64,000 nt of DNA from Isoetes taiwanensis (lineage: Eukaryota; Streptophyta; Lycopodiopsida; Isoetales; Isoetaceae), in the NCBI GenBank assembly GCA_021234155.1, contig JAJEKV010000054.1, forward strand, positions 2,643,702-2,707,701, in the 5' to 3' direction. The translations under genes were made by a program, and so were the position numbers. The notes beneath the pieces were generated by a model. That model searched no databases. It had not been told where the DNA came from and saw only the letters and a list, made by a program, of their open reading frames with translations. Shown piece by piece: positions 43,604 to 56,396 of this stretch; within the stretch, counting starts at the first letter, position 1; every line of letters starts with the position of its first letter.

Positions 43604-46600
43604 GACCAGCCAGAGCCACAACCTTTTGAAATGACTTGCCATCCATATAGCCTTGAGAAACCAAGAACTATAGGACTTATCAGTCCCTTTGGCTCCAAAA
43701 AACCAAAAGGGGAACCTTGGAAACCATTTTTATCTTGAATTAAATAGTGATTGCATCATAAAATGTAATACAAGCAATCAGAAATTCATCATCATCCAAA
43801 ATAAAGGTAAGGGTTAAGAACAAAATACATTATCATCCAAAGTTAACAAAAAAGGTAAGGGTTAAAAATATTTTAAACCATCCAAAAACTGTTGAACATA
43901 AAGTTAACAATGACAAAAGCCTTTTTAAGCAAGTTATTATGAAAATCATGGGGCAAAAAACCAAAAGCCTTAAGAAGCGTCAACTTTTATTCACCATGGA
44001 TTTGAAACCGATAAATCAGCAACAAAGTTTATGCTTTTTGAGGTAAACAACAACAAGAGGCGGTTTGGTAACAAATATAAAGACCCTTCAACTTGTATGC
44101 TTCAAGAGTTTTCATAAAAAATACCATACCATGGCAAAATTTTATGCAAAGTTATTTTAAAAGCGGTATCAAAAGTTGCAAGAGATAATCTTTTGTCACC
44201 ACGTAAACATCCACAATCAACCATGAGAACATGGGAAAAGGAAGTTCGGTTACTGCGGTCAAGCGGATCACAAATTAGCCCTTTTGGGTAATTGTGAAAT
44301 TGACTAGCGGGGTAAAGCAATGAACATCCTTGGCATTTTCGACCCTTCACCCATACATAGGAACCAAAAGCGAAGACAAAGTTCGAGGAGTAAGAGGAGT
44401 AAGTGGAGTAAGTGGCTAGTTCTCAGCAGGTCTGAGAATACTATATGTTCCTGTTTTCTTACGGAATCAAAGGCATGTCATCGCAGTCACTCTTACCAAA
44501 TAAGCGCTCATCTTTAAAGCGGATCATGCTTGGAAGCGACAATTTGTGCTTGTACAAATTAATAGAACTATTATGTAGCAATAATACTGATAATAATAAG
44601 AATAACGAGAATAATAAGCTAGCCTAAGTGAAATAGTAGTCCCAGATGTGCATATCTATTTAATGCTAAAATTATTTTGAAGTCAGCTGTCAAGTCTTAC
44701 CGTGATCCAGCAAACACTGTTAAAAGATACCTGGTCCAAGGATTAAGCAAAAGAGGTTATACAACTAAGTTGTACTGCTAAATGCAACTAGGTCAACATA
44801 AGTATGTTAAAGTGGCCCCAGGATCAGGGACTCTATTCAATACCTCATTTGCAAATCAAGTTAAAATAAAACATTGCATTGCTGAGATATGAATTAACTG
44901 CCGGATTTAATAATAGATTTAAACTGGGTTTCCAGATCATATACAGGCTCAGGATAAAGAACATATGCTTACAACACAAGAATTATTCAGAATAGATCAG
45001 ATCTGCCTTGAAAGGAAGGACTAAAGTGACTTATAACTTAAAACATGACATCTAAGCAACTCACATTACCTTGCTAAAGTAAACCAGACAAATAATTAAG
45101 TTAGAAGCATATGATGATCCCGATTAGTAAAAATGAGATATACATGGAGGTTTGGAGAATCAGAGTTATCATATAAAACTGTATAACATGCTACATGAGC
45201 GGCCTTTGGTGCAAGTATAATCCCTTAAAGGTATTTGATATAGTTCTGTCATTCAACCTCAATGATAGTTATCCTACACAGTGATACAACCAGGTGAATC
45301 ATTGGCCATTTATTGCTTAATCTACCATGGATTCAACTATCCGGCTTTTATTTCGATTACGAGATATTACGCAAGCCAGACCACTTAGGTTCAGTTCTAA
45401 GATATGTATCCACACTAGTGTTGCTAAATAAATCCGCTTTTAGCATGGATTACAAGCATGCTTGGAGTTTCCACTAAATCGTATGGATTCTAAACCACAT
45501 GCTAGATACAATGAACATGTTATTGACCCGGTTAAAGCGGTATTGTTTAAGGCCTGGGTTCAGCCCGGATAGACCAGCCAAAGGATTTAAGCAACAATAT
45601 TTTTAAATCCCATGTTAAACCATCGATAAGGGTCGATTACTAAAAATATGGATCCAACAATCATAACGACTTAGCTAAGCATGGATAAAGCAAAGGGAAT
45701 GACTAAAGCTTCGTGCTCAAAGCGAGTTTAAATTTGCCTTATGCTCGGGATATACGTCATAGCACATATTAGTCGATTGAGACTTCGCATGCGTGTTTAA
45801 GCTAAAATATGGATCCACTGCAGTACTAACAGATGATTTAGCCTGGATTTTCAGATAATACACAGGTTATTATAATTCAGTACGGGTTTAGATCATAGGC
45901 CTATAAATTCTGAGGGAGAATCAGACTAAATCAGATCTGCATTAGACAACACCAATAAAGTGACACATGCCATAATACTAGAACTCAACCATATTCAGAT
46001 CACCTTGCTCAACAAATTCATACAAAAGTCAATCAGGAAAGCACATGGTTCAGATGACATATGCCTATGAATAATATGATGCAGACTTTTACGGGAATTT
46101 GGAAGATTAATGTATAATATAATGAACCTGATTAGGCTGGATCTCCTCCTCTGCTTTATCATTGTCAGATTCGTCCTCTTCAGATGGTGAAAGTGGCACC
46201 ACTTCCACATTGGCAGGTACATCAATCCTATCTGTTGCATCAATCCTATTTGTTGCATCAATTTCCTTGTGAACACTACTACAGCCCTGTAAACTTGGCA
46301 TGAACTTCTTGATATTGCTATCCTGCTTATCCCTCCCTGGATCAATGTTATTGATTCTGCAGAGCTCCAATAACTGAGCCTTTGTTGGTTGCACACTTGG
46401 ATGCTCAATCCCATGCCTTCTGAGCACTTCAATTAATTTATGCCTGGTCTGGCCTTTGTTATGGGCGCCCTCAGGCCGCCCAGCTCTGTTCATGATCCCA
46501 ACAAAGCAGAAAAACCATGTTACAAGCCCTTATAATGGCTGCTAATCCCATATTTTTAAGATTAATCCTGCTCTGGGAACAAACCCTGCCAGTTAAAGGC

Positions 46601-47890
46601 CTTGATCTCTTGTTATAAGAAGATTTACGTATACCTTTTTCTGGATAATAACAGGATAATACCTGGCATTGCCCATCATGCCTAATCATGTAAAATAAGA
46701 GTACAAACCCACTCGAAGAGTCTCTGATCTGTCCGTCCGGTGTTAGGGATCCGTCAAGGCGGCCGATTAGATGCGATGTGGATCAATGCTTCAAAATTTT
46801 AGGGTTGAGCCAAATGCCGTAACTCCGCATTAGGGTTTGCCTTGTGCAATTATCAGAAAAACATTTCCACGTATACACCATATATGATCCATTAGGGAAA
46901 AATTAAAACATACCAAAGGTGCTACACTTAGTTGCCCAAGGCACCATGCATAAAATCTTTACCCATGAAATACCATTGAGTATTCCCAGGAATACTTCAT
47001 AATACCTTCAATTTACGCCTGCCTCACCAATTAGCTTATAAATCTTGTGCCGTCATATACTAATGGGATATTGCCATAACAAGGCAAAATTATACTTAGT
47101 ATGTTAAATTTGCTCAAGAGCCTAGTTCTGGCCAATGTGATTTCTAGTCCATGGAAATAACACTAGGGTGCAACTTAGATACGTGCAATGGCGATCATAT
47201 ACAACATTTCATAGGAATTCCTTGCCAAATGGTTTAGAACAGTGATACAAAAAGTAATTTTCAGAAAAAATTCCAAGTCCATGAGTGGATTTGTTGTGCC
47301 AACAGTACTAATGCAAATGATCAGAAAAAAGCCTGAGCATCCAAACAGAGGCATGAGTGTCTAGTGATCAATATCCAAGCCTAAATTGTGGGCCATACCA
47401 AATGTCTAGATATGTCATAAAAGAGGCAAAACAAATGAACTTAGAGGGTGATGCATAATGGTTACCAACAATTTATAGGTCAATGAGGTTTAGGAAAATC
47501 ATATCCTTTAAAGGATATATGCTAAGAAATCTAATTGATCAAATTAGTTCCAGAGGCACAGTAGATTAAATTGGTTGTGCAAAACCTCGGGCTTAGTAGT
47601 TATCTTTTAACCTATGCCAAAATAAATTAAAAGCATATGTTTCAGTTTAAGAGAAAAGCTTAAAACCGAGAAGACATAATCCTGTGTCATAAATCAAAGC
47701 CAGATAACAATGGCAAACAAACTTAAAGTATTGAACTTATGGTAAAACCATTTCCATGAGTGAGTTTTCCAAAAATATTAGACCAAAGTTGCTGACCCTA
47801 GATCAAAGTAACATAAACCATAAAAGGAAGGTTGGAAGTCCATTGAGCACCAATAATCAAAACCAAATAGAGGCCAACCCAGATGCCACA
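43604..47890 (-). repeat. 4.29-kb direct repeat, downstream copy
   Basis: Starts GACCAGCCAGAGCCACAACC and ends GATGCCACA at the TA run. The half nearest the core (46500-47890) is almost identical to 55010-56396. The other half differs mainly at CAG/CTG sites (for example AAGCGGTATC here, AAACAGTATC in the other copy). Contains an intact SAP-like exon at 46493-46128; otherwise mostly intron-like. Confidence 0.95.
46128..46493 (-). CDS. SAP-like first exon of the retroelement (intact copy)
   Basis: An ATG-led frame reads MNRAGRPEGAHNKGQTRHKL, IEVLRRHGIEHPSVQPTKAQ, LLELCRINNID and ends in an acidic, Ser-rich tail (SPSEEDESDNDKAEEEIQ). The Leu pattern, GI turn and TKAQLLELC resemble a SAP-type DNA-binding helix-loop-helix. 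It ends with AATCAG|GTTCAT, a donor in phase 0 that would join the ORF1 acceptor (TATAG|GAAGGC at 51933). This copy lies downstream of the RT, so it can only feed ORF1 in a tandem array. The homologous exon at 54990-54632 is in the correct upstream position. Confidence 0.65.
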
Positions 47891-55100: not shown

Positions 55101-56396
55101 AAGGCCTTGATCTCTTGTTATAAGAAGATTTACGTATACCTTTTTCTGGATAATAACAGGATAATACCTGGCATTGCCCATCATGCCTAATCATGTAAAA
55201 TAAGAGTACAAACCCACTCGAAGAGTCTCTGATCTGTCCGAAGCTGTTAGGGATCCGTCAAGACGACGGTCGTGCAGTGACGGATCAATGCTTCAAAATT
55301 TTAGGGTTGCGCCAAATGCCGTAACTCCGCATTAGGGTTTGCCTTGTGCAATTATCAGAAAAACATTTCCACGTATACACCATATATGATCCATTAGGGA
55401 AAAATTAAAACATACCAAAGGTGCTACACTTAGTTGCCCAAGGCACCATGCATAAAATCTTTACCCATGAAATACCATTGAGTATTCCCAGGAATACTTC
55501 ATAATACCTTCAATTTACGCCTGCCTCACCAATTAGCTTATAAATCTTGTGCCGTCATATACTAATGGGATATTGCCATAACAAGGCAAAATTATACTTA
55601 GTATGTTAAATTTGCTCAAGAGCCTAGTTCTGGCCAATGTGATTTCTAGTCCATGGAAATAACACTAGGGTGCAACTTAGATACGTGCAATGGCGATCAT
55701 ATACAACATTTCATAGGAATTCCTTGCCAAATGGTTTAGAACAGTGATACAAAAAGTAATTTTCAGAAAAAATTCCAAGTCCATGAGTGGATTTGTTGTG
55801 CCAACAGTACTAATGCAAATGATCAGAAAAAAGCCACGAGCATCCAAACAGAGGCATGAGTGTCTAGTGATCAATATCCAAGCCTAAATTGTGGGCCATA
55901 CCAAATGTCTAGATATGTCATAAAAGAGGCAAAACAAATGAACTTAGAGGGTGATGCATAATGGTTACCAACAATTTATAGGTCAATGAGGTTTAGGAAA
56001 ATCATATCCTTTAAAGGATATATGCTAAGAAATCTAATTGATCAAATTAGTTCCAGAGAGGCATGATGAGATTAAATTGGTTGTGCAAAACCTGGAGCTT
56101 AGTAGTTATCTTTTAACCTATGCCAAAATAAATTAAAAGCATATGTTTCAGTTTAAGAGAAAAGCTTAAAACCGAGAAGACATAATCCTGTGTCATAAAT
56201 CAAAGCCAGATAACAATGGCAAACAAACTTAAAGTATTGAACTTATGGTAAAACCATTTCCATGAGTGAGTTTTCCAAAAATATTAGACCAAAGTTGCTG
56301 ACCCTAGATCAAAGTAACATAAACCATAAAAGGAAGGTTGGAAGTCCATTGAGCACCAATAATCAAAACCAAATAGAGGCCAACCCAGATGCCACA
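52109..56396 (-). repeat. 4.29-kb direct repeat, upstream copy
   Basis: Counterpart of 43604-47890. At its inner edge the sequence continues without break into the ORF1 intron (AAATATATAGACCAGCCAG), so this copy is the native 5' half of the full unit. The outer edge (GATGCCACA, 56396) meets a (TA)n tract. It carries the SAP-like exon at 54990-54632, which is disturbed. Confidence 0.95.
54632..54990 (-). pseudogene. SAP-like first exon, disturbed upstream copy
   Basis: Same exon as 46493-46128 but with frame breaks in the first third (for example ACCAGGGCATAAATT for ACCAGGCATAAATT, TACGAGCAC for TCTGAGCAC on the plus strand). The acidic tail is intact. The donor reads AATCGG|GTTCAT instead of AATCAG|GTTCAT. 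Several changes lie at CAG/CTG sites, so sequence error is possible. If real, the element cannot make the full SAP-ORF1 protein from this copy. Confidence 0.7.

Follow-up and report, generated by a model that had tools for sequence, protein, structure and literature searches.

A retroelement family of Isoetes taiwanensis with no recognised endonuclease, pseudo-LTR-like repeats and (TA)n ends

Insertion of endonuclease-less retroelements away from chromosome ends is poorly understood, and the question is raised anew by a locus of the plant Isoetes taiwanensis. The DNA analysed (the window) is a 64,000-nucleotide stretch of contig JAJEKV010000054.1, positions 2,643,702 to 2,707,701. On its minus strand two 4.3-kb direct repeats (A) bracket a long open reading frame (ORF1) and a reverse transcriptase (RT), giving a retroelement of A-B-A structure. 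How does such an element find its target and start copying? We consider the following answer slightly better than an even guess: the family has no recognised endonuclease, its RT is nearest to a mussel RT and weakly allied to the Penelope/telomerase branch, its organisation resembles that of Penelope elements with pseudo-long terminal repeats (pseudo-LTRs), and it moves by the cycle proposed below.

Layout, family size and element ends

Read in the sense direction, the element consists of (TA)56, repeat A, the ORF1 exon, the RT exon, a hairpin block, repeat A and (TA)40. The two repeats are 94.3% identical over 4344 aligned columns. The window holds 11 pure TA tracts of (TA)12 or more, and both element borders lie in two of them. 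Open frames of at least 70 codons were listed for 43597-56408; conservation between copies was found for three of them, namely ORF1, RT and a SAP-like exon located in the repeat. The original prediction, made from the letters alone, had described an A-B-A element with an RT, a long ORF1 with a Cys cluster, a pseudo-LTR-like layout and (TA)n at both outer borders in a plant host, and all of this was borne out: the host genome gave 49 AUX/IAA matches vs. none in 14 prokaryote controls, and the layout recurs as repeat pairs, common borders and same-strand tandems. Its statement that each 4.3-kb repeat carries a SAP-like exon was likewise confirmed; the left exon is intact and the right one is damaged in the assembly. 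The junction RNA, the block after the RT, two phase-matched acceptors, fixed repeat ends and an RT-less derivative, all described below, go beyond it.

The genome searched comprised 1,658,258,908 bases in 1110 contigs, and copies are named after their contigs (C950, C1062 and so on; WIN for the window copy). Searching at the DNA level, we scored 40 of 961 candidates and obtained 62 matching pieces. With the RT protein, all 64 scored matches, the best 64 of 4759 candidates, were nearly full length, with 60-84% identity (self 100%), and 49 of them had no stop codon. The ratio of nonsynonymous to synonymous change (dN/dS), limited to comparisons with unsaturated synonymous change, was 0.07-0.22 wherever computable among 8 RT and 10 ORF1 sequences. 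Near-complete, stop-free copies together with these ratios indicate that the lineages are old and that function has been maintained. The element is a member of a large, abundant retroelement family in a land-plant genome.

Five copies could be read at both ends (WIN, C950, C1062, C966a and C1026). They have common repeat borders, and since three of them are only 68-70% identical in DNA to the window copy, the layout is not due to chance. A long repeat pair was present in nine copies, the two repeats of one copy being 93-99% alike. No full matching pair was found in the stretches examined of C966b, C974, C412, C1075, C919 and C834; the outer ends of C985, C1058 and C983 lie outside the stretches examined, and C11 was read at its 5′ start only. 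In all five copies the 5′ repeat starts in or at a TA stretch; this corresponds to the TA found after the hairpin block at the internal copy. The end of the 3′ repeat is GT(C/A)TATAT in each of them. When a 250-base query spanning the joint was compared with the whole genome, 11 of 31 matches stopped at bases 198-200, that is, at the repeat end, 14 ran through and 6 ended elsewhere; the 3′ end of C11 (C11:111310), though outside the examined stretch, is among the 11 exact ends. The sequence that follows the repeat end consists of TA repeats in eight of nine copies (short in C974) and is CAGGTAG in C950; the C834 repeat enters TA slightly earlier and was excluded from this end count. Matches to the repeat start that do not include the hairpin block begin at query positions 89-93, in the TA after the hairpin, in three of four cases, one of which is the window.

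Insertion inside (TA)n masks target-site duplications. The 5′ flank of the window copy recurs at 20404-21258 around a TA tract without an element, from which it follows that TA target tracts lie in dispersed sequence; around the (TA)n, 20404-21258 and 56396-57231 are 94% alike. The element ends coincide with or adjoin (TA)n at places distant from the ends of contigs, and no attachment to telomeric repeats was seen.

Junction RNA and probable cis signals

The joint between repeat A and ORF1 lies within a structured RNA (B130, 52229-52055). Compensatory changes preserve the hairpins of this fold as well as its outer and inner stems. In 14 aligned rows, 45 pairs are formed with 96.3% of cells paired. 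Changes on both sides affect 28 of the 45 pairs (14.7 in shuffles) and there are 85 double-change cells (26.4 in shuffles), values that none of 500 shuffles reached, and the signal was destroyed when pairing partners were slid. The count of pair types is less striking, being as high in 20 of 500 shuffles. The TATATA at which the element ends is identical in all 14 rows, and the position of the element 3′ end coincides with the unpaired UAUAUA loop of this fold. A second block inside repeat A (B120, 52853-52733) has five double-change pairs, a number reached in 1 of 500 shuffles; its pair types were matched in 466 of 500. The hairpin block after the RT is strongly conserved (12 rows), and its pairing and score lie slightly above shuffles (10 and 11 of 500). 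In the decayed second copy of the window (23349-29274, minus strand) the outer stem of the junction RNA is kept despite a broken RT.

In a 1.26-kb piece of contig C1100 (L063) the junction RNA and an acceptor of ORF1 type are present together with the hairpin block and its TA, and no RT match was found between the junction RNA with its acceptor and the hairpin block. The junction RNA of L063 is 85% alike to those of C1026 and C919, and the next hairpin, 4.7 kb distant, has the same orientation. Among 66 hairpin places, 10 same-strand and no opposite-strand pairs occur within 20 kb, with 0.03 expected. These places are 36 of the 40 rows of one search (four had no hairpin) and 30 of the 48 rows of another, from which 9 rows duplicating ones already counted, 1 partial match and 8 short reverse matches of the same hairpins (18 rows) were omitted; both searches scored only the best candidates. 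Pairs on C93 and C996 show the same spacing as the L063 pair. Together this suggests that the junction RNA and the hairpin block act as signals in cis and that a tandem arrangement is normal for the units. Between the ORF1 stop and the RT acceptor (window ~50090-50330) a conserved GGCCACAGTGCC-like motif is followed by a small GGGA..TCCC hairpin, both retained in L063; they may constitute a further RNA signal.

Coding capacity and affinity of the reverse transcriptase

The RT frame encodes 696 amino acids (aa) (47999-50089, minus strand). Its motifs AD(I/V)TKCYENIP, GIPMG and YIDD, catalytic Asp residues included, are invariant in 8 of 8 copies, and the conserved protein starts at QIKW (50080), not at the ATG. 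Pfam RVT_1 was matched by 8 of 8 RT copies (best E 0.00019), the window RT scoring 19.5 bits against a cut-off of 29.6. ORF1 is open over 531 aa (50341-51933), and four Cys (340, 345, 347 and 355) are invariant in 11 of 11 copies. Profile searches of ORF1 and of the SAP-like exon, suggested by the original prediction, gave the following: among 11 ORF1 copies none matched a Pfam family at E up to 0.1, and the exon gave sub-threshold matches, to SAP in 2 of 11 exons (best E 0.0092) and to HeH in 6 of 11 (best 0.03). A match of the exon to PDB entry 8fre (E 3.8e-5) consisted of four weak matches within a repeat protein and was rejected; otherwise, PDB sequence searches with RT, ORF1 and the exon gave nothing credible.

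All 13 exons selected as undamaged have an ATG and a phase-0 donor CAG|GT. They represent one exon per copy, the intact twins in C950, C1062 and C1058 being uncounted; omitted as damaged or partial were the 5′ exons of WIN, C11 and C985, the 3′ exons of C966a, C412 and C1026, and both exons of C983. Alignment A7 comprised 11 of the 13 (C966a and C1026 omitted). In WIN, C11, C985, C966a and C412 often one of the two exons is intact and the other has small indels, which are either assembly errors or real decay. An AG acceptor stands at the codon border of ORF1 (phase 0) in 11 of 11 copies, and an ACAG|AT acceptor stands at that of the RT (phase 0) in 8 of 8, with no conserved ATG. As donor and acceptors share the phase, the exon can join either partner. 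We predict from these splice sites that one SAP-like exon is probably shared by two proteins, SAP-ORF1 and SAP-RT; a single long SAP-ORF1-RT fusion is not suggested because ORF1 has its own stop. The genomic copies carry the conserved splice sites together with the presumed introns.

Pfam scans of the exon (11 copies), ORF1 (11) and RT (8) revealed no GIY-YIG, APE or restriction-like endonuclease, no protease, RNase H or integrase, and no tyrosine recombinase in ORF1 or RT. The original claim that no recognised endonuclease is encoded is thereby upheld, ORF1, where an endonuclease or integrase had been named as the finding that would speak against it, included. Elsewhere in the genome GIY-YIG gave 121 matches. 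Four loci were read (L029-L032): a small GIY-YIG frame (115-156 aa) is present in 4 of 4 and lies downstream of a helicase-like frame in 3 of 4, an arrangement on which we rejected them as copies of the studied element. They are presumably Helitron-like.

Among the sequences compared, the closest RT comes from pieces (L060 and L061) of short contigs with broken reading frames, deposited with Bathymodiolus gill symbionts and probably mussel DNA. With the L060 piece, each of the 8 family RTs gave a match at 25-30% identity, with E 2e-11 to 5e-8 in a search against a set of 3 contigs. Pairwise, host Penelope-type, telomerase and Ty3 sequences gave no match to family RTs at 0.01, and direct blastp between the family RT and the host Penelope-type RT was not significant (best E 0.51). 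That reference (L054-L056) is of putative Penelope type, so labelled because an RT core probe found it; the telomerase label rests on Pfam. A profile of seven family RTs and two mussel pieces aligned with the Penelope-type RT over 249 columns (P 3.5e-4, probability 37%), with motifs A to E in order and the thumb colinear; for the telomerase exon P was 0.0038, and for Ty3 it was 0.25. With the mussel pieces removed, the values were 0.022 for the Penelope-type RT, 0.01 to 0.19 for telomerase and 0.3 for Ty3. Judged from these profiles, the RT appears weakly related to the Penelope/telomerase branch, an affinity rather than a placement. The original suggestion of a wider Penelope class or a sister class is thus favoured weakly, by the mussel-supplemented profile and against a reference of putative Penelope type; LTR affinity, which would have spoken against it, was not seen. 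A small RT tree gave no resolution and was set aside; the RT alignment (A9) held 7 of 8 RTs (C412 omitted). AlphaFold models were too poor to help (mean predicted local distance difference test 46.7 for RT and 41.1 for ORF1, the latter helical), Foldseek with the low-confidence RT model found no match at E 0.001 or better, and IMG/VR scans with RT, ORF1, the host Penelope-type RT and an animal probe gave no matches. The host Penelope-type family (L054-L056 and L059) has an RT of ~680 aa; two of its frames were scanned for GIY-YIG and gave no match. Contig C1062 carries a second locus resembling telomerase (L053), with a high content of Asn and Thr.

Table 1. Features of the element and of a second family copy in the window (window coordinates).
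Feature	Position	Strand
(TA)40 tract, sense 3′ outer border, pure TA	43524..43603	.
Repeat A, sense 3′ copy; end GGTCTATAT leading into (TA)n	43597..47902	-
Junction RNA, truncated 5′ part; element end falls within the fold	43597..43725	-
B120 structured RNA block, 3′ repeat copy, diverged	44231..44353	-
SAP/HeH-like exon, intact, 122 aa, ATG start, donor CAG|GT, phase 0	46128..46493	-
GC-rich hairpin block, conserved, directly after RT stop; then (TA)n = 5′ edge of 3′ repeat	47889..47990	-
RT exon, 693 aa + stop, acceptor ACAG|AT, no conserved ATG	47999..50080	-
ORF1 exon, 531 aa + stop, acceptor TTTTATAG|GA, phase 0, Cys cluster	50338..51933	-
B130 junction-spanning structured RNA, complete; A/internal joint in its TATATA loop	52055..52229	-
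Repeat A, sense 5′ copy	52101..56408	-
B120 structured RNA block, 5′ repeat copy	52733..52853	-
SAP-like exon of 5′ repeat, damaged: frameshifts, donor altered	54631..54949	-
(TA)56 tract, sense 5′ outer border, pure TA	56397..56508	.
Second family copy, decayed; SAP, B120, B130, ORF1 and RT in the same order	23349..29274	-

Satellite-like repeat blocks, 65-89% alike, are also present in the window, at 16750-18630, 35200-36140, 30500-31970, 36290-37370 and 21259-23276.

Proposed cycle and its alternatives

In the cycle that we propose, the 5′ repeat would drive a transcript, and its SAP-like exon would be spliced to the ORF1 or the RT exon at the conserved sites. The SAP-like module would take both proteins to AT-rich DNA, and unspliced RNA would serve as the template, as proposed because genomic copies keep the presumed introns. 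The RT would then start internally, at the UAUAUA loop of the joint-spanning fold. Because no endonuclease is encoded, the (TA)n 3′ end at a break is the proposed primer; end position and fold are observed, and priming at this place is deduced from them. Copying would proceed upstream and then switch to the repeat of a second or of the same RNA; it would stop in the (UA)n beside the hairpin block, where (TA)n may pair with the other side of the break. The expected outcome is A-B-A with TA ends or head-to-tail tandems, and both products are present in the genome.

Penelope-like elements without GIY-YIG form an endonuclease-deficient subclass; in Penelope-like elements hammerheads in the repeats are common, not universal, and genomic copies may retain introns. 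The pseudo-LTR and tandem arrangement of these elements is present in the family described here. According to the description of the anole Penelope (PMC11167929), internal RT start in a stem loop near the pseudo-LTR/ORF joint and AT-rich targets explain the insertion ends. Anole PAc, a canonical Penelope/Poseidon element, also shares with our element the pseudo-LTR/ORF/pseudo-LTR order, tandem copies and an insertion end inside structured RNA near the joint. The element differs from Penelope/Poseidon in having no GIY-YIG and no hammerhead, a separate ORF1, a SAP-like exon inside the repeat, 4.3-kb repeats and (TA)n ends. Endonuclease-deficient Athena/Coprina Terminons are described (PMC6431247) as combining a 3′ fold with short repeats able to pair with the chromosome end. 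Our element has (TA)n in place of telomeric repeats, a non-hammerhead fold, A-B-A structure and a SAP exon. It joins the logics of both, in that its end falls in the loop of the junction RNA and this loop, like the target, consists of TA. The layout thus works like Penelope pseudo-LTRs with internal initiation, yet we do not file the element as Penelope because GIY-YIG and hammerhead are absent and the RT shows an affinity, not a placement. Our literature search found no Penelope-like element of plants with a SAP domain, most subscription journals lying outside its coverage.

Several observations weigh against the proposed cycle. One of eight RTs matches an NCBIfam group II intron RT (E 0.008), which blurs the affinity of the RT. 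In the hairpin block double change is seen in only 1 of 24 pairs, a value matched in 413 of 500 shuffles. The upstream SAP exon of the window copy is broken, and in its assembled form this copy may be unable to produce the fusions. Among the other copies, C950 has no (TA)n after its end, the hairpin block of C966a is interrupted by TA runs, and C834 and C412 have no closely matching repeat pair. In the anole element, moreover, the start site shares no homology with the cleaved DNA; for our element we propose homology to (TA)n.

That the ends are fixed on both sides would fit a true LTR mechanism too, in which the 4.3-kb repeats arise by strand transfer and a host or trans-acting integrase inserts the element into (TA)n. 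The long direct repeats, their likeness within the nine copies with a pair and a purine-rich stretch preceding the 3′ repeat are in keeping with this. We nonetheless find it unlikely, since Pfam detected no protease, RNase H, integrase or tyrosine recombinase, inspection of the borders showed neither TG..CA ends nor, at the joint, a TGG as the start of a primer site, the RT is not alike (Ty3 P 0.25), and pairs lie head-to-tail. A comparable, equally low probability is given to the view that the element really terminates, at its 3′ side, with the hairpin block and (TA)n, made by target-primed copying, and that the repeat further downstream belongs to a second tandem unit that is truncated. C966b, which lacks a 3′ repeat and ends at hairpin-(TA)n, fits such ordinary copying, and most hairpin matches stop at TA; but in 11 of 31 matches the end of the downstream repeat is at one and the same position, and hairpin matches may stop merely from fast divergence of repeat starts.

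A known Penelope-like element of Athena/Coprina type, endonuclease-deficient, with extra exons and using existing breaks, is somewhat less improbable, though still doubtful. Telomere-associated Penelope-like elements are reported from Selaginella (PMC12477314), and in Terminons a 3′ fold goes together with target-complementary repeats (PMC6431247). The host presumably has its own Penelope-type RT, which showed no GIY-YIG in either of two scanned frames and to which the mussel-supplemented profile aligns. Against this stand the blastp result, the lack of a hammerhead, and a SAP exon, an ORF1 and a junction RNA that are absent from the Penelope descriptions compared. Finally, the junction RNA might be a self-cleaving ribozyme of unknown type that generates the RNA end. 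Its fold, which is conserved and multi-branched and has the element end in a loop without pairing, would allow this prediction, but Rfam searches (window at the gathering cut-off, element at E up to 5) gave no hammerhead and no other ribozyme, and we consider it the least probable.

Returning to the proposed cycle, a bolder extension is conceivable, though we lean towards doubting it: the plant family and the mussel-type RTs would form one ancient retroelement order beside Penelope and telomerase, endonuclease-independent, primed by (TA)n breaks at a UAUAUA loop, with a SAP exon alternatively spliced to ORF1 and RT. Much of the novelty depends on the RT phylogeny and on splicing as predicted from the sites. 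The element seems to be related, in an unusual form, to the Penelope-like elements, which are themselves little understood. The family offers many intact copies, sharp ends, covarying RNA at the likely initiation point and a short derivative pointing to cis signals, and the link between Penelope elements, telomerase and existing breaks becomes testable in a plant.

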